Of a stretch of 52,717 nt of DNA, positions 17,525 to 37,697 are shown piece after piece. Source of the stretch: a virus. The stretch covers positions 1 to 52,717 of the IMG/VR virus record IMGVR_UViG_3300035701_000046, one strand, 5' to 3'. The notes under the pieces were generated by a model. That model was not told where the DNA came from and ran no database searches. It saw nothing but the letters and a program-made list of their open reading frames with translations. Position 1 is the stretch's first letter. Each line of letters opens with the position of its first letter. The translations under genes and the position numbers were made by a program.

Positions 17525-18349
17525 ATGTCCGAACGTCCGAAGACCCCCGAGCTGTCCATTGTGGATGGCGGCAAGCCAGAGGGACAGGCGGGCCAATCCC
17601 GTCCCGAGGGTTTACCGGGGCAGAAATGCTTGGCGCGGCGTCGTGTTTGCGCATGCACTCACCGCTTCGTCAAGGATGAGCGGATCGTCGATCGTGATCT
17701 ATCTGTGCGTATGCGGCCAGATTACGACCGGCGAAAGCTAGGGGTTTGCCCTAGCTGTGGGCTGGTCCGCGAACTCTGCGGCCAGCCTGCGGTAGAAGGC
17801 CGTTATGTTTGCCGCTTCCACGGCGGTAAAGCAGGCCGGAAGCCGATGGTCCCTGTTATTCACGCTCTCAGGGACGAAGACCGCGATGCTGTCGTCGCTT
17901 CGATCGAAGCGAAGGACGAAAACCTCACCGTCGAATTCCACGTCGTCAAGCACATCCTCGATTCCGTCCTCACCCAGTACGACCCCGAACTCGCTGACCT
18001 AGATTTCGCTGAACGCGCTGTCGCGCTGCTCGATCGTGTTTCTTCGATCGGCGAGCGTCGGGCGCGTCTACGTCTGCTTGTCCCGCCAGACCTAGAGAAG
18101 CTCAAGCTCGACTTCGGGGATCCTCGTGTTTCGCTCGCCATCAAAGAAAAGATGCGAGACAACTACGAGAAGGCTATCCGGGGAACCGTTCAACTGATGA
18201 TCGAAGCGGTGAGGCGGGATCCCAAATTACTCGAAGGCGTTATCAAGCTCCTGCCTGAGCGGCTTCGGAACTACATCGAAGTCGTTTCGGCTCGACCCGC
18301 ACAATTCCAGATCACTCTACCAAATGCCCAAGAAACCCCGGAGCAGTAG
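17525..18349 (+). CDS. Putative terminase small subunit
   Basis: This 274-residue protein lies directly before the large terminase gene and overlaps it by 26 bases, the usual place for the DNA-recognition subunit. Residues 38-110 hold cysteine clusters CACTH, CPSCG and CGQPAVEGRYVCRFHGG, the CRxHGG zinc motif often found in phage small terminases. A helical C-terminal half follows. GAGGGGG precedes ATG 17525. Sequence alone does not prove DNA binding, so the name rests on motif and position. Confidence 0.6.
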   Translation: MSERPKTPELSIVDGGKPEGQAGQSRPEGLPGQKCLARRRVCACTHRFVKDERIVDRDLSVRMRPDYDRRKLGVCPSCGLVRELCGQPAVEGRYVCRFHGGKAGRKPMVPVIHALRDEDRDAVVASIEAKDENLTVEFHVVKHILDSVLTQYDPELADLDFAERAVALLDRVSSIGERRARLRLLVPPDLEKLKLDFGDPRVSLAIKEKMRDNYEKAIRGTVQLMIEAVRRDPKLLEGVIKLLPERLRNYIEVVSARPAQFQITLPNAQETPEQ

Positions 18350-20450
18350 CCCCGGTAACGGCAAGCCCAAGAAGAATGCCGATATCGACTCGCTACTCGA
18401 CGAGATACAGAATAACGCCCTGCGCGAGCTGTCGTTGCAGCTCCCCGAGGTCCACCAGATCGCGGCCCGATCCGGCGTGGGAAGCCCGGTCTCTGACATC
18501 GCGTGGGTCGAACAACCCGTTACGTTTCACGAGTTTGTAAACGATCCGTGGCACATGGATCAGCCGCCTTTGGGAGATCGGCAGCGCCAGGATATCGAGA
18601 CCTTTCTCGGCGAAGAACCGACGCAGATTTTCTCCCGGCTGGCATCCCATCTCGAAGGGGCCTTCCGCGAGGCGGTGCTTGTGTGGGGAAAGGGGGGCGG
18701 AAAAGACTGGATCTGCACGATGGTTCAGTGCTATCTGGTCTACCTGCTCCTGTGCATCAAGGACCCCCGGCATGTTCTCGGTCTTGCCCCTCACGAAGCG
18801 GTAGACATTCTCAATGTCTCCTATTCGGCGAAACAGGCTAACGAGGTCTATTTCACGAAGTTCCTCCAGCGTATCCTGCACTGGCGCTGGCTCCGGCATA
18901 ACTATCCGATTGAGTTCCAGAGAAAAGTCATCAACCGGGAAGATCACCCTCATGCTCAGCTTCAGCCAGATGGGCAAAATTACGTTCATATTGGGGCTGA
19001 TCAGGTGCGCTTCCCCCACTTGATCCGCGCCATCAGCGAGCACAGTGAGAACGAGAGCTACGAAGGGTACAACATCCTTTTTTGGGTCATGGATGAAGCG
19101 GCAGCCTTCCGTAACGCCGGGAAAAAGGCGAACGCCCACAAGGTCTACTCTACCCTTCGGACCTCGGCGGTAAGCCGGTTCCCGCAGCTATGGCGGGGGA
19201 TGATGATCAGCTACCCCCGGAGTGCCGACGATTTCATCATGACCAAGTACGCCCAAGGCCAGGCGGACTCGGAGTGTTTCACCTCGCTCGCGTACACCTG
19301 GCAGGTAAATCCGACCAAACAAGAGTCCGATTTCGAGAAAGACCGGGAGAAGAACCCGGTCGAGTACGAGGCCAAGTACCGTTGTAATCCGCCCCCGCGT
19401 TTCGGGTCGGCATTCGACCCTCTAAACGTCGATGCCTGCGTGGATTACAGCCGGAAATCCTTGGTGAAGACAAAGCCCGCGATCATTTCCGCACGGGTAG
19501 AGGAACCCGGTACGGGAGTGGTATATCAGAGGCAGTTCGTTGGGAAATCGTTGACTGACGTGAACGTACACGATCTCGGAGAAAAGGCCCGCCCCCGTGT
19601 GTTTCACGTCGATGGCGGCCTGACGAACTGCCCTGCCGGGCTTGTCGTGGCTCATGGGGAACCAGTCATGGTTCAGGGTCAAGTCCTGAACAAAGTCGTG
19701 GTCGATGTCCTCTTGCAGTGGAAACCGCTGCCCTCGAAGCGGCTCCAGGTCTCGCTCAACAACATCGCGGCTTTCATCGAGACGCTTTCGCATCACATCA
19801 CGATCGTCCGGGGGAGTTACGATCAGTGGAACTCTCAGTCGGCTCTGGAAGCCCTTTTCTTGGCGAATATCCCGGTCGAGAAGCACGATATCACGGCGGA
19901 CGACTATGGATGCCTGGAGGGCCTCATTAACCTCGGCTGCATCGCTATTCCAGGGGATGACGAGACTGAGTGGGAGATCATTACCGCCGAGTTGAAGAAT
20001 CTCGTCCGGTACAATGTCGGTAGCAGGATCCGATACGACATCCCGCGCGAAGAGGGGGAGACCACACGGGACGATTGGGGAGGGCCTCGGTACACCAAGG
20101 ACATCGCGGACTGCCTCGCCGGGGTCTCGCGTCTCCTGAACGATCCCCTTATCCGGGCCGATGTCTCCGGGACTCGCGCGCCTGGCCTTATTGCTGGCCC
20201 GAGTATGAGTTCGCAGGGTCGGGGGCAGCCGATCAGCGCCCGGCGGGATCTCGCCAACCGGGGATACCTCCCCGAGAAACTTCCTGCCTCGACGTTCCCG
20301 ACGGAAGCCGGGTTCATGGGGGCGCAGATGAATCAATCGTCGCGAGCCGCGAATCAGCATGTGCTCCTCACGGAGATCGCGGGGAAGATGCGTCTACGTG
20401 GCATCAACGAGCCGACGACCCGTAGACCGCCGAAACCGATTATCAAGTAA
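18324..20450 (+). CDS. terL: Terminase large subunit (packaging ATPase/nuclease)
   Basis: This 708-residue protein has an N-terminal ATPase with Walker A VWGKGGGKDW at about 120-129 and Walker B ILFWVMDEAA at about 251-260. An RNase H-like nuclease follows, with VFHVDGGLTNC near 426-435 (first acidic residue) and KDIADCLAG near 605-613. It pumps DNA into the prohead and cuts the concatemer. It is longer than many TerL proteins (usually 450-600 residues), with an extra tail after the nuclease. It follows the putative small subunit with a short overlap. Confidence 0.92.
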   Translation: MPKKPRSSSPGNGKPKKNADIDSLLDEIQNNALRELSLQLPEVHQIAARSGVGSPVSDIAWVEQPVTFHEFVNDPWHMDQPPLGDRQRQDIETFLGEEPTQIFSRLASHLEGAFREAVLVWGKGGGKDWICTMVQCYLVYLLLCIKDPRHVLGLAPHEAVDILNVSYSAKQANEVYFTKFLQRILHWRWLRHNYPIEFQRKVINREDHPHAQLQPDGQNYVHIGADQVRFPHLIRAISEHSENESYEGYNILFWVMDEAAAFRNAGKKANAHKVYSTLRTSAVSRFPQLWRGMMISYPRSADDFIMTKYAQGQADSECFTSLAYTWQVNPTKQESDFEKDREKNPVEYEAKYRCNPPPRFGSAFDPLNVDACVDYSRKSLVKTKPAIISARVEEPGTGVVYQRQFVGKSLTDVNVHDLGEKARPRVFHVDGGLTNCPAGLVVAHGEPVMVQGQVLNKVVVDVLLQWKPLPSKRLQVSLNNIAAFIETLSHHITIVRGSYDQWNSQSALEALFLANIPVEKHDITADDYGCLEGLINLGCIAIPGDDETEWEIITAELKNLVRYNVGSRIRYDIPREEGETTRDDWGGPRYTKDIADCLAGVSRLLNDPLIRADVSGTRAPGLIAGPSMSSQGRGQPISARRDLANRGYLPEKLPASTFPTEAGFMGAQMNQSSRAANQHVLLTEIAGKMRLRGINEPTTRRPPKPIIK

Positions 20451-33081: not shown

Positions 33082-35040
33082 ATGAGGACGATTGTCATGG
33101 CAAGTCGTTATGAGATCGTACCGGCGAGTTCTCTCCAAACGAACAAGCTGGACGAAGGTTTCCGCGAACTGACGCGGGGACGCCCGTTCAATCGTGTCAT
33201 CAAGACTTCGGCACAAGGCGGGCAGAGAAGCCTGATGCGGGTCCCAACACAGGGAATGTCGCAGGGGATGCCCCGGTCGTTGCAGAAGTATTCGGCGATG
33301 GCAGGCGGATCGTCGTGGCGGCATACGAGGACCGAGTTCCTGGAGCCGCAGGTCCGCGATCCCTTGCTCTCTGCCAGCAACTTCTATCTGCCGACGGATC
33401 GGGTGATGATGAATGCCTGGATCCGCTACTTCGATCGTTTCCACCCGATTGTCGGGAACGCGATCGACATGCACGCGACGGTGCCGTTCTCGAAGTTCCA
33501 GTTAAAGGACATCGACGACCCTGCCATCCGGCTGTTCTACGAGGACATGACGACCGAGGTCAACCTCTTCCGCCGTATCCTGGAGATCAGCCGCGAGTAC
33601 GAGCTGATCGGCGAAGTCTTCCCGTTTGCGTACTGGGACGACGAGATGAACGCTTTCAGCGAAATCGTCATCCTCAACCCCGATACCGTGGAAGTCATTG
33701 GTATCTACATCGCTGGTGAACGAACCTGGCGCTACGAGCTTGTGCCGGACCCGACCGTTGTGGCTTTCTTGCGGTCGGATAACCCCCTCGATTGGGAGAT
33801 CGTGCAGGAGATCGATCCGGCGATCATCCGGGCCGCACAGACGGATACGAATGCCCCCCTTGACCCGTTCAACCTCTCGCACCTCGCGCGTAAGCAAAGT
33901 CCTTACGATGATCGCGGGGTCAGCATCATCATGGGCTGTCTCAAGGACCTGCTCTACGAGGAGCAGCTTTTGGAAGCTCAGTATGCGATCACCGGGGGTA
34001 TCGTCCGCCCTCGTGAAATCTGGAAGCTCGGTATCCCCGGCGAGTACATGCCGACCGATGAGGACCTCATGGACCTCAGAAATTTGCTCGCCGCTTCCGA
34101 GTTCGACCCCAACTTCGCTCTGATCAGTCACCACGGCCTCACCGTGGAATTCGTCGGCGCAGACCGGCGGATCCTGCCGATCATCCCCGAACGGCAGCAG
34201 ATTGAGGACCGTCTTCTTACCCGCCTCTACACGAACAAGGCCATCACACACGGGGAAGGCCCAACCTACGCGAATGCCTCGGTGGCGATGCAATTTATCG
34301 CTGCGCGATACGCGACGAAACGTGACTACATCACCGAGTGGATTCGAGACAAGGTCTTCCTGCCGACCTCGTTGGCCAATGAGTTCTACCACCCGCTTGC
34401 CCCCCACATGACCTCCGGCCAAGGGCCGTGGATGAGGACCTCGGGGCAACGCGAGCTTGTCATCCCCGATTTCCAGTGGCTTTCCCTCGTCGATCTCACC
34501 GACAAGGGCCAGAAACTTCAGTACGCGATGCAGCTTGCAACGCAGGCGCGTCTGCCGATGAAGACGATCCTCGATCTTCTCCAGATCGATTCGAGCGAGG
34601 TCGAGTTCTGGCTTGAAGAAGAAGAAGGGACCCGACTCGACGCGATTTACCAGTCTACCCGGAAGATGGTCCAGGAAGCCCGAGCGCGGGTTGAGGAAAC
34701 GAAGAAACTCGCTCCCGGCGCTCCGGGTGCTGGTGGACAACAGCCTGGCGGAGCCGGTGGGGAAAAGAACACTCCCGAGGGGATCGCTGATGATCTCCGG
34801 CAGAAGTCTGAGAAGGACGAAAAGGCCCAGGAAAAAGTGCCCCCCCCGGTCAAACCGGCAGCGGAGCAGGCTCAACCGACGGAGCCAAAGACAGAGCCAG
34901 CGGTGCGCCAGGGCGCAGTGGTGTTCGGCCCTTTCGATCTGAAGCCAGGGGAGAACATCTTTGCCGGTGCGGAAACCCTGGAAGGCTCTCTCTTGGACAT
35001 ATTCCGCATGGGGCCGCCCGACAAACCGCCCAAGACCTAG
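33082..35040 (+). CDS. Portal protein
   Basis: This 652-residue protein lies before the Mu F gene, the usual order. A core (residues 100-500) has HPIVGNAIDMHATVPF, DTVEVIGIYIAGERTW, SPYDDRGVSIIMGCLKDLLYEE and TDEDLMDLRNLLAASEFD, typical of HK97-type portals that form the dodecameric DNA channel at one head vertex. The last 110 residues are a Pro/Glu/Gln-rich extension that may be cleaved or disordered. GAGGGAAG precedes ATG 33082. Confidence 0.85.
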   Translation: MRTIVMASRYEIVPASSLQTNKLDEGFRELTRGRPFNRVIKTSAQGGQRSLMRVPTQGMSQGMPRSLQKYSAMAGGSSWRHTRTEFLEPQVRDPLLSASNFYLPTDRVMMNAWIRYFDRFHPIVGNAIDMHATVPFSKFQLKDIDDPAIRLFYEDMTTEVNLFRRILEISREYELIGEVFPFAYWDDEMNAFSEIVILNPDTVEVIGIYIAGERTWRYELVPDPTVVAFLRSDNPLDWEIVQEIDPAIIRAAQTDTNAPLDPFNLSHLARKQSPYDDRGVSIIMGCLKDLLYEEQLLEAQYAITGGIVRPREIWKLGIPGEYMPTDEDLMDLRNLLAASEFDPNFALISHHGLTVEFVGADRRILPIIPERQQIEDRLLTRLYTNKAITHGEGPTYANASVAMQFIAARYATKRDYITEWIRDKVFLPTSLANEFYHPLAPHMTSGQGPWMRTSGQRELVIPDFQWLSLVDLTDKGQKLQYAMQLATQARLPMKTILDLLQIDSSEVEFWLEEEEGTRLDAIYQSTRKMVQEARARVEETKKLAPGAPGAGGQQPGGAGGEKNTPEGIADDLRQKSEKDEKAQEKVPPPVKPAAEQAQPTEPKTEPAVRQGAVVFGPFDLKPGENIFAGAETLEGSLLDIFRMGPPDKPPKT

Positions 35041-35180: not shown

Positions 35181-37355
35181 GTGTCGGACTACGAGGCGCG
35201 GGGCAGAATCGATCCTGAAGCGATTTCCAGGGCACTCACCACGCACCTTGAGGGCCTATCCGTCTCCGGGTCCGATTTCCTTCAGAAAAGCCTAGAAAGT
35301 TTACATCATAATTCACTCATCGATGCCCTGAACCGGGCGGGATTCCGGCGCGAGGTCCGCCGGATGTCGAAGCAGGCCCAGACAGCGGGGGAACGCGATG
35401 AGCAGCTCCGGCGTTCGTTCGATATGGCCTTCCGCAGTGTCACGTCGCTGCCGGATGAAATCGTCGAGCGGATCCGGTCCAGGATTCTCAAGAATCTCGA
35501 AGAGGGCCGGGGTAGCACCGAGAAGGTACTCCGGGCGATTATCCAAGAGGAAATCGAGGGCCTCGGGGAGATGGACCCGGTCTCCCTGCGCAAGGCGATT
35601 CGGAAAATCTGGGACGAGACCAAACGAGACCTTCAGCGCGTAATCCGGTCCGAATCGATCAACGCCTACTCGCGGGTGCAACTCAAGGAATGGGCCGATC
35701 GCGGCATCAAGCGTGTCCGCCGGAAGAGCATCGACGATGATCGAACGTGTGCGATCTGCCGCGAGCTTTCTCGTCCGGGGACGAACATCTACGACATCGA
35801 GGCGCTCCTGCGTCTCGACTACCCTGTCAGTCAGGACCCCGACACCGGCGAGTGGATGACGCATCCGAACTGTTTCTTGCCAGGCACGTTAGTCAGAGGG
35901 GATTTTGTGGCTGGAAGCCGGGCCATCTATAATGGCCCTGCTCGGGAGATACGGACGGCGAGGGGTGAATGTCTTCGCGTCACGCCCAATCATCCGATAC
36001 TTACCAAGAAAGGATTCGTCCCCGCGAAGGATCTCGGGCCAGGCGATAATCTCGTTTGCTACAACGCTCCAGAGAACAGGCCCGCTTCCGTTGGCCTGAG
36101 TACAAACAATCAGCAAGAACCAACCCGAATCGAGGATGTATTCCATACGATCCGAGAGATGGCGAAGGCGGCCCATCGCCGCCTTGATATTACTGCCAAG
36201 GATTTCCACGGCGACGCGAGTTTCTTCGTGGGCGAAGTCGAGATTGTATCGCTCAATGGGGAGCTGAGAAACGAATCCCTTTCCTTTGAGCCAGTCACCG
36301 AGGAAGATTTCGTCTTGGGATCGGTTGCTCTGAAGTCGGAAGCGAGTGATCGCACGCTGCCGATAAACGTCGTCGGTGTGGCACCCAGCGATTTGACGTG
36401 CTCGAACTGTGGGCGTCATCTTCGACCACTTCAATCTCTCTGCATCGGACTGCCCACGGAGATCAACGCCTTGTTCCTGGAATCGGTGGGCCAGGGCAAA
36501 GCGTCCAATGCCCGTAATCTTCGAGAGGGTATTGAGAGATTCCCCGGCGTGGTAACGAGTGATCAGGTTGTCGAGATCCTGGATTTCAATTTTTCTGGTG
36601 ATGTTTATGACCTCCAATCTACGTCGGGTTACATTGTAGCACAGACTGTCGTTGCTGGAAATTGCCGCTGTTGGTTCGAACCCTTGATTGACGATGTCTG
36701 GTCGGAGCTTGAGGGGATGGAGGCGCAACTCCTCGCAGATATCACACGGGGTGAAGCTACTGCCCGAGATGTTCCGATCGATTCTCAGAGGACGGTGGAG
36801 AAGGCGCTTCGAGAACACAAGAAGGTTGAGATGGACGTGCGCTTCGTCCCGAGGATTGTTGACCTTCCCGAGTGGCAAGCTGTCCGGCGTGAAGAGTTGG
36901 CCAGCGATGTCGGATCGGAAAAGGCAAAGGTTCTCTTGCAGGGCGAGATTTTCGCAAACGAAGTCGTTGAGTGGACAGACTCCGATACGGGTACCCATTA
37001 TGTCGCTTCCCAGGCTCAAGAAATCGAGCACGTGAGTACGCCGATCGCGCGTGCCGCAGCCGAGAAGCTGTGGGATGGCGGGGTCGTGCCTCATGCTTGG
37101 GTCGCGACTCGATACCGCGAGAAAAAGGCATCTCTCAACGCGACTCTCGAAGTCGAGGGCTACAAAATCTACGGTGGGCAGCCTTTCCCGAACGAAATCG
37201 CTGCGCAGAGTGTCCGCGACTATTTCGTTGAAAGTTATAGTCTTTACGTCGTCCAACCTTATATCCTGGAGACCGCCGACCCCGAGATGTACGAATGGCT
37301 CCGCGTTGAGGTCTTTGGCGGGCGGGAGTTCATGCAAAGGGGTGGGATAAAGTAG
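35181..37355 (+). CDS. Mu F-like head morphogenesis protein with an intein
   Basis: This 724-residue precursor contains a Mu F/SPP1 gp7-type domain (residues 130-230, IRSESINAYSRVQLKEWADRG, DDRTCAICRELS) interrupted at the conserved HPNCRC motif by a 264-residue intein (231-494). After splicing the extein junction would read HPN-CRCWFEP. GTG 35181 is the first ordinary start, but the frame is open and coding-like upstream to about 35003, so the true N-terminus is probably longer, made by an unusual start or by frameshift from the portal gene. Mu F proteins act inside the prohead. Confidence 0.85.
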   Translation: MSDYEARGRIDPEAISRALTTHLEGLSVSGSDFLQKSLESLHHNSLIDALNRAGFRREVRRMSKQAQTAGERDEQLRRSFDMAFRSVTSLPDEIVERIRSRILKNLEEGRGSTEKVLRAIIQEEIEGLGEMDPVSLRKAIRKIWDETKRDLQRVIRSESINAYSRVQLKEWADRGIKRVRRKSIDDDRTCAICRELSRPGTNIYDIEALLRLDYPVSQDPDTGEWMTHPNCFLPGTLVRGDFVAGSRAIYNGPAREIRTARGECLRVTPNHPILTKKGFVPAKDLGPGDNLVCYNAPENRPASVGLSTNNQQEPTRIEDVFHTIREMAKAAHRRLDITAKDFHGDASFFVGEVEIVSLNGELRNESLSFEPVTEEDFVLGSVALKSEASDRTLPINVVGVAPSDLTCSNCGRHLRPLQSLCIGLPTEINALFLESVGQGKASNARNLREGIERFPGVVTSDQVVEILDFNFSGDVYDLQSTSGYIVAQTVVAGNCRCWFEPLIDDVWSELEGMEAQLLADITRGEATARDVPIDSQRTVEKALREHKKVEMDVRFVPRIVDLPEWQAVRREELASDVGSEKAKVLLQGEIFANEVVEWTDSDTGTHYVASQAQEIEHVSTPIARAAAEKLWDGGVVPHAWVATRYREKKASLNATLEVEGYKIYGGQPFPNEIAAQSVRDYFVESYSLYVVQPYILETADPEMYEWLRVEVFGGREFMQRGGIK
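35871..36662 (+). mobile_element. Intein within the Mu F gene
   Basis: The in-frame insertion starts with Cys1 (CFLPGTLV, block A), has RVTPNHPILT (block B) and ends VYDLQSTSGYIVA and VVAGN before Cys+1 (blocks F and G). The penultimate residue is Gly rather than the usual His. Sense-strand blocks C-E of an ordinary LAGLIDADG endonuclease are missing. The middle is occupied instead by a reading frame on the opposite strand (35889-36617). Confidence 0.85.
35889..36617 (-). CDS. Homing endonuclease, EDxHD/Vsr-like, antisense within the intein
   Basis: This 242-codon frame reads against the Mu F gene and fits inside the intein. It has a helix-turn-helix-like start (LITRYHAGESLNTLSKITGI), then IERYNLDFAHEETRVAVEIL, DRMEYILDSGWFLLIV and GKYRMIGRDAK, matching the order of Vsr-fold homing enzymes: YN-x-D, VAVEI-x-G, R-x2-YIL-x-GW, YR-x-I-x-D. 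It ends 18 bases from the intein's left edge. The start is uncertain: TTG 36617, or ATC 36602 which has GGAGGT seven bases upstream. Beyond the intein the same frame is a non-coding shadow. Confidence 0.7.
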   Translation of the reverse strand: MEVINITRKIEIQDLDNLITRYHAGESLNTLSKITGIGRFALAHRFQEQGVDLRGQSDAERLKWSKMTPTVRARQIAGCHTDDVYRQRAITRFRLQSNRSQDEIFLGDWLKGKGFVSQLPIERYNLDFAHEETRVAVEILGSNIKAAMGRLRHLSDRMEYILDSGWFLLIVCTQANGSGPVLWSVVANEIIAWPEILRGDESFLGKYRMIGRDAKTFTPRRPYLPSRAIIDGPASSHKIPSD

Positions 37356-37445: not shown

Positions 37446-37697
37446 ATGATGGCGAAAGTCTCGAAGACGAATAGTCGGCTCCGTCGTGAACTTCAGCCTG
37501 TCTGCCGTGAGCTTGTTCGCGAGTGGGAACAGCAGGGATGGACGATTCGGGAGCTTTCGCGGGCCGCTGGAGTTAGCCACGTAACCCTTCACAACATCAA
37601 GCGAGGCGGGTTACCAACGCTGATTATACTGAGGCGTATCGCAATCGCCCTGGAAATCCACCCGAGCGTGTTCTTTCGAGAGGTGGAAACGAGATGA
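37446..37697 (+). CDS. XRE-family helix-turn-helix regulator
   Basis: This 83-residue protein has the HTH core TIRELSRAAGVSHVTLHNIKRGG (about residues 32-54), with a LEIHPSVFF end typical of Cro/CI-type repressors. It would bind DNA as a dimer. It follows its own TTGACA-type promoter, and its stop overlaps the next start by four bases, so it could autoregulate this small operon. ATG 37446 and 37449 are adjacent alternatives. Confidence 0.85.
   Translation: MMAKVSKTNSRLRRELQPVCRELVREWEQQGWTIRELSRAAGVSHVTLHNIKRGGLPTLIILRRIAIALEIHPSVFFREVETR

Follow-up and report, generated by a model that had tools for sequence, protein, structure and literature searches.

Canonical inteins of the LAGLIDADG and HNH kinds consist of splicing halves with the conserved blocks A, B, F and G, and they carry between these halves an endonuclease that is read in frame and is part of the intein. 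Homing endonucleases of the EDxHD type, whose signature is defined by the residues E, D, H and D, are said, after work by Dassa in 2009 and Taylor in 2011, to be borne by introns or to lie between the halves of split genes ('fractured genes', split inteins). Endonuclease genes running antisense to the host gene within a self-splicing element are known from nuclear group I introns, e.g. that of I-DsqI, and have been found to be expressed and active (PMC9548176). Because such an element is an RNA intron, its sense strand need not encode protein. A phage insertion that is open in the frame of its host gene and hides an endonuclease in another frame has also been described; it is not an intein, no splicing domain was found in it, and its endonuclease, an HNH enzyme, is out of frame on the same strand (PMC11855218). 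The locus analysed here shares with the canonical inteins the four blocks, the position of the endonuclease between the splicing halves and the sporadic occurrence in a conserved gene. In contrast to them, its endonuclease is encoded by a separate gene on the opposite strand, which overlaps the splicing blocks too. It thus resembles the I-DsqI-type introns in the antisense orientation, with the difference that in an intein both strands must be open, and it differs from the phage insertion in being an intein with an antisense gene.

The window, i.e. the whole stretch of DNA that was analysed, is a virus record of 52,717 bases. Immediately downstream of a portal gene it contains an intein-interrupted MuF-like head/minor capsid gene (35181..37355, + strand), for which the GTG at 35181 was chosen as start, being the first of the ATG, GTG and TTG codons. 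The exteins (35181-35870 and 36663-37352, + strand) matched phrog_15127 (head protein, 1.4e-30) and phrog_115 (minor head protein, 6.4e-10). Since Pfam Phage_Mu_F was matched with 0.036 only, the MuF assignment leans on the PHROGs. Three other features of the window were recorded. A frame of 457 codons lies opposite the portal gene (33502-34875, - strand) and is probably a composition effect. A small HTH_3 (Cro/C1-type) protein is encoded just 3' of the MuF-like gene (37446-37697, + strand). The large terminase subunit (18324-20450, + strand, 708 aa) has about 200 extra residues, 567 of its residues aligning to 366 profile positions, and no intein match was found in it with Pfam.

By motifs and fold, the segment 35871..36662 (+ strand) is an intein; that it splices is inferred from these features. 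It encodes 264 amino acids and is inserted at HPN|CRC, the sense frame being open from Cys1 (35871-35873) through Asn264 (36660-36662) to Cys+1. The motifs C1, TPNH (block B), VYDL...AGN|C, N264 and C+1 are present. The penultimate residue is Gly, not His, and is Ser or His in other members of the family. The match to Pfam Intein_splicing had an E-value of 1.2e-6 and 28.9 bits, which is under the curated score of 35.8, and the sense family profile matched solved inteins with a best E of 9.1e-9. The AF2 model has the splicing fold, with the Mtu RecA intein as top Foldseek match, and the matches listed for it were inteins and hedgehog (best E 1.3e-3). Pfam match, motifs and PHROG-assigned extein together bear out the first-pass annotation, which had placed an intein with these borders in a Mu F gene. 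In the model the N-terminal splicing half (blocks A and B with TPNH, 35871..36068, + strand, residues 1-66) has a pLDDT of about 90, and the C-terminal half (blocks F and G, 36546..36662, + strand) 83-97 for most of residues 226-264; with values mostly above 80 in both halves, the Hint fold was accepted. The sense linker (36258..36545, + strand, residues 130-225) is predicted to be disordered (pLDDT about 30). A Pfam search of the linker gave no nuclease match, and the in-frame endonuclease of canonical inteins is absent.

On the opposite strand of this segment lies the antisense endonuclease gene (35889..36602, - strand), made up of 237 codons (36602-35892) and a TAA stop at 35891-35889, in exact codon register with the sense frame. 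The reverse complement of the N-terminal splicing half encodes the C-terminal part of the nuclease, the linker faces its helix-turn-helix (HTH) domain and first catalytic helix, and the reverse complement of the C-terminal splicing half holds the promoter-like, Shine-Dalgarno (SD) and start region. An antisense frame of 729 bases, which corresponds to counting from the TTG at 36617, had been described as starting and ending within the intein. The stop codon does lie inside. The start did not hold up, as the frame is open to 37592, well beyond the intein; it is the homologous gene in the family that starts inside. Because the frame runs this far, its length and openness are by themselves weak evidence, and together with the exact register, and with the frequency of such frames in GC-rich loci, they would fit an antisense frame that merely mirrors the conserved intein by chance. 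With the sense protein and the codon usage of the exteins taken as given, the probability of an open antisense frame was log10 P = -1.4 for the window and went down to -15.7, the lowest values coming from single AT-richer loci. Frequent antisense stops in homologous inteins, which would have spoken against the gene, were not encountered: both frames were open in all intein-borne loci examined, i.e. in 40 of 40 intein loci and the window, and in 22 more loci, and the loci examined included the ten that were collected by the sense intein (see below).

Recoding allowed the two strands to be separated. The antisense frame of the window scored 151.3 bits with an HMM built without the window. When the sense codons were permuted synonymously (500 times, intein protein kept), the antisense score fell to 40.9 ± 12.5 with a maximum of 83.5, so that about 110 of the 151 bits were lost, contrary to what a chance mirror would give. 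In the reciprocal test the sense HMM gave 158.6 bits for the window and, under antisense-synonymous permutation, 62.5 ± 10.5 (maximum 98.4). Since scores dropped in both tests, each strand holds information of its own and neither mirrors the other; since the sense and antisense scores were similar in the window pairs, neither strand is free. Ten loci (seven distinct sequences) were collected by the sense intein only, i.e. without selection by the antisense strand, and all ten contained the antisense gene (E ≤ 2.3e-68). The codon of the catalytic-motif Glu133 (VAVE, 36204..36206, - strand) faces a sense TTC within 'DFHGD'. The sense codon facing this Glu was TTC or CTC in 41 of 41 loci and never TTT, although TTT makes up 40% of the Phe codons of the exteins, a bias which is not expected of a chance mirror.

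The substitution patterns of the two strands, whose comparison among homologous inteins had been proposed by the first-pass annotation, pointed in the same direction. Between the phages Snoke and SGP009, substitutions at sense codon positions 1/2/3 numbered 65/34/148 for the N-extein; for the nuclease region they numbered 44/10/27, and those in its centre were nearly all at position 1. In the close pairs the fast-evolving position moved from sense position 3 in the exteins to sense position 1 in the middle of the intein, which is the opposite of what selection on the sense protein would produce, and a shift away from position 3 was seen in every such pair. When 13 pairs were pooled, the fractions at sense positions 1/2/3 were.27/.22/.51 for the N-extein,.47/.19/.33 for the intein middle, about.34/.16/.50 for the splicing halves (the N-terminal half having a mixed pattern,.35/.15/.50) and.22/.13/.65 for the C-extein. 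In the linker region (36258..36545) of relatives substitutions were likewise most frequent at sense position 1. Comparing the window with 15 relatives, identity by antisense codon position was.49/.63/.41 in the nuclease, and identity by sense codon position was.40/.50/.29 in the N-extein, so that the window displayed the shift too. Coding on both strands is therefore an observation, and the proposal that the same DNA encodes the intein and an opposite-strand enzyme is supported by the permutation tests and by the substitution patterns of the family. The recoding and substitution tests refute the chance-mirror explanation, to which we assign a negligible likelihood; it is also at odds with the fact that matches to known nucleases and a confidently predicted fold are features of the antisense proteins and not of the sense linker, and with the existence of a free-standing relative whose other strand is rich in stops (see below).

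The antisense frame encodes an HTH domain followed by a Vsr-like PD-(D/E)XK nuclease; nuclease activity was not shown. In the AF2 model of the window protein (mean pLDDT 85.6) the HTH domain (residues 10-43, 36474..36575, - strand) has helices at 10-18, 23-30 and 34-43, and it precedes the nuclease core (residues 96-193, 36024..36317, - strand), predicted in the order helix-strand-strand-strand-helix-strand-helix. The core contains E98, D122 and E133, which are invariant across the nuclease family. Alone, the window protein matched DUF559 with 0.0015 and 18.8 bits, under the Pfam curated cut-off of 20.6. REase_MTES_1575 was matched by seven of nine family members and Vsr by one, with DUF559 matched as well; members also matched HTH_7 and HTH_38 (best 7.3e-10). 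The family profile matched the HTH domains of transposases and resolvases and, with 1.3e-4, the structure of I-Bth0305I (PDB 3R3P), establishing homology with the catalytic domain of this enzyme. A fold search against predicted viral proteins gave nine matches with E ≤ 0.001, the best named ones being DUF559, endonuclease-like and Vsr-type, and among PDB folds no match of the window model reached this threshold. The predicted profile similarity to Vsr-like and EDxHD nucleases was thus found (DUF559, REase_MTES_1575, Vsr, 3R3P). Of the assignment to an EDxHD/Vsr type, the Vsr-like part stands, and the EDxHD part holds at most tentatively: of the signature, E and D are conserved, and the His is absent from the window protein and from most members, the window having Ile-Lys where some relatives have Trp-His. 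As the signature His is not conserved, which also sets the family apart from I-Bth0305I and the EDxHD homing endonucleases with their homologous core, 'Vsr-like, related to I-Bth0305I' is a safer description than 'EDxHD'.

Blocks F and G of the intein, read as reverse complement, were found to be enriched in putative expression signals of the nuclease, expression itself being inferred. In most loci the nuclease begins with ATG or GTG, which is the reverse complement of the His codon in block F (GHVYNL). In the window, which has Asp at this place, the start position (36600..36602, - strand) is ATC. Seven bases before it there is an SD-like GGAGGT (36610..36615, - strand), and further upstream a promoter-like TTTCCA-17-TGCTACAAT with an extended -10 (36633..36661, - strand), identified as a consensus match. 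GGAGGT-type SD sequences occur in the codons next to the block F start across most loci. An SD of at least 5 bases was present in 22 of 34 loci (mean 3.7, maximum 8 in synonymously resampled sense controls). The promoter-like score averaged 8.38 across loci as against 7.18 ± 0.23 in the controls, none of 300 controls reaching 8.38, and two loci had TTGACA-18-TATAAT. Because the loci are related, these counts are not independent, and the promoter evidence amounts to a consensus match that appears enriched but not universal.

With its ATC start the nuclease of the window may be poorly expressed or inactive. It can be argued that the antisense gene is real and once was a mobile endonuclease but is decaying in this virus, a reading we regard as possible though not the favoured one. 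The ATC at the family start position and the Ile-Lys in place of the Trp-His of some relatives, i.e. the loss of a standard start and of the catalytic His, agree with it, and no close relative was found in which recent selection could be tested. On the other hand, the whole frame, E98/D122/E133, the SD sequence and the extended -10 are intact, there is an in-frame TTG at 36617 upstream of the ATC, the frame has been kept in several relatives that likewise have no start at block F, and many of the members lacking the His are clearly conserved. The result for the family is independent of the state of the copy in the window.

The two-strand arrangement was present in more than 100 phage records and in about 60 fetched loci, where examined in MuF-like or unnamed head-region genes. 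Using tblastn, the antisense protein of the window detected 112 phage records, in which, where examined, the match was antisense to an annotated gene. The nuclease of Gordonia phage Malisha as query detected 130 records, from phages of Salmonella, Pseudomonas, Klebsiella, Escherichia, Vibrio, Acinetobacter, Haemophilus, Gordonia, Rhodococcus and others, and the sense intein 123, the organisms being largely those of the antisense searches. In viral contigs no relative was detected when the window nuclease was used as a single query. In the public record of Snoke (MK931441, 2183-4042) the intein is annotated as a separate mat_peptide (note: Cys244-Cys516), the first Cys of which fits the intein seen here, and there is no annotation opposite the intein. 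In Rhodococcus phage REQ3 (JN116824) the intein apparently starts with Ala rather than Cys and is faced by a shorter antisense frame (208 aa). In phage fEg-Eco06 (PQ141284) an intein of the family occupies a second site in MuF, TSTT|C...KN|CRARDG, which replaces HPN|CRST within one phage genus.

The sporadic distribution of the element was observed at two sites. Joined flanks of the Snoke site matched 482 phage records, and in 400 of these a single place covered 80% or more of the query, which was taken as the sign of an intein-free allele, since a record split by an intein should not give it; the matches listed were single contiguous pieces, up to 93% identical. With the joined flanks of the Gordonia site the same criterion was fulfilled by 137 of 160 records, with identities up to 97%. 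Judged by these alignments, most of the relatives searched appear to carry intein-free alleles. Conflicts between intein and extein were assessed by comparing pairwise identities, without a tree. The intein of vB_StyS-sam is 95.5% identical to that of Snoke and 89.3% to that of SGP009, whereas its extein is 65.2% identical to Snoke and 85.2% to SGP009; Affeca and Angelicage share 96.7% in the extein and 88.8% in the intein. Part of the high similarity of inteins may be owed to double coding, which would slow change, and not to transfer.

A free-standing relative of the nuclease is encoded in Acinetobacter phage IME285 (MH853786, 455-1348). The gene is convergent with an intein-free MuF gene, the end of which it overlaps; stops abound on its other strand, so that it serves as a natural control. 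BUCT629 and P1068, also Acinetobacter phages, encode the same protein; only IME285 was examined. A split intein in IME285 was considered and rejected, as this phage has a complete MuF gene without an intein, next to which the nuclease is encoded. A nuclease of the IME285 type is possibly the ancestor of the antisense gene, or an escapee from it. This copy, located beside MuF in the absence of an intein, is compatible with a role of the antisense nuclease other than homing of the intein, such as cutting competing phages or regulating the head gene. The HTH domain would also be compatible with regulation, and homing is backed by homology and distribution only. Such another role nevertheless appears improbable: the gene is nested in inteins of MuF-like genes of unrelated phages and at more than one MuF site, intein-free alleles are many, intein and extein similarities conflict, and among solved structures the nuclease part is best matched by I-Bth0305I, which is the homing endonuclease of an intron.

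Homing is proposed on the grounds of this homology, the intein-free alleles, the conflicting similarities and the free-standing relative beside MuF. In the mechanism envisaged, the capsid gene would be translated together with the intein, which would then splice itself out, while the nuclease would be made from a dedicated transcript by means of the promoter-like and ribosome-binding signals that lie opposite blocks G and F. This enzyme would probably cut intein-free MuF alleles in co-infecting phages, and repair of the cut allele would copy the intein and the antisense gene as a whole two-strand element. We thus interpret the locus (with a probability of roughly 0.9) as a mobile intein inserted in a MuF-like head gene, with two proteins encoded codon against codon by the two strands of the same DNA, the antisense nuclease being separately expressed and homing being probable; splicing, expression, cleavage and homing are inferred.

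The literature searched contained no description of an intein with an antisense endonuclease; priority is uncertain, a preprint on actinobacteriophage inteins (10.1101/2025.01.02.630785) and the EDxHD papers being outside the search. It seems fairly likely that these loci represent a class of mobile inteins that is widespread and has not been described before. In this class the endonuclease would have a gene of its own on the antisense strand, and the reverse complement of the splicing motifs would supply the promoter, the ribosome-binding site and the start codon of this gene. The class may stem from the reverse capture of a free-standing endonuclease adjacent to MuF.

Long antisense-overlapping protein genes are rare and disputed in prokaryotes. 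The present pair is conserved and repeatedly sampled, and selection of its own can be demonstrated for each strand. The term 'endonuclease-free' intein needs to be redefined, as a 'mini' or 'linker' intein may hide a mobility gene on the other strand. The findings also suggest that conserved intein residues, such as the His of GHVYNL and the FHGD motif, can be mere reflections of what the opposite strand encodes. They raise the questions how a gene lying antisense within the head region gets expressed and whether the entanglement shields a selfish endonuclease from loss.
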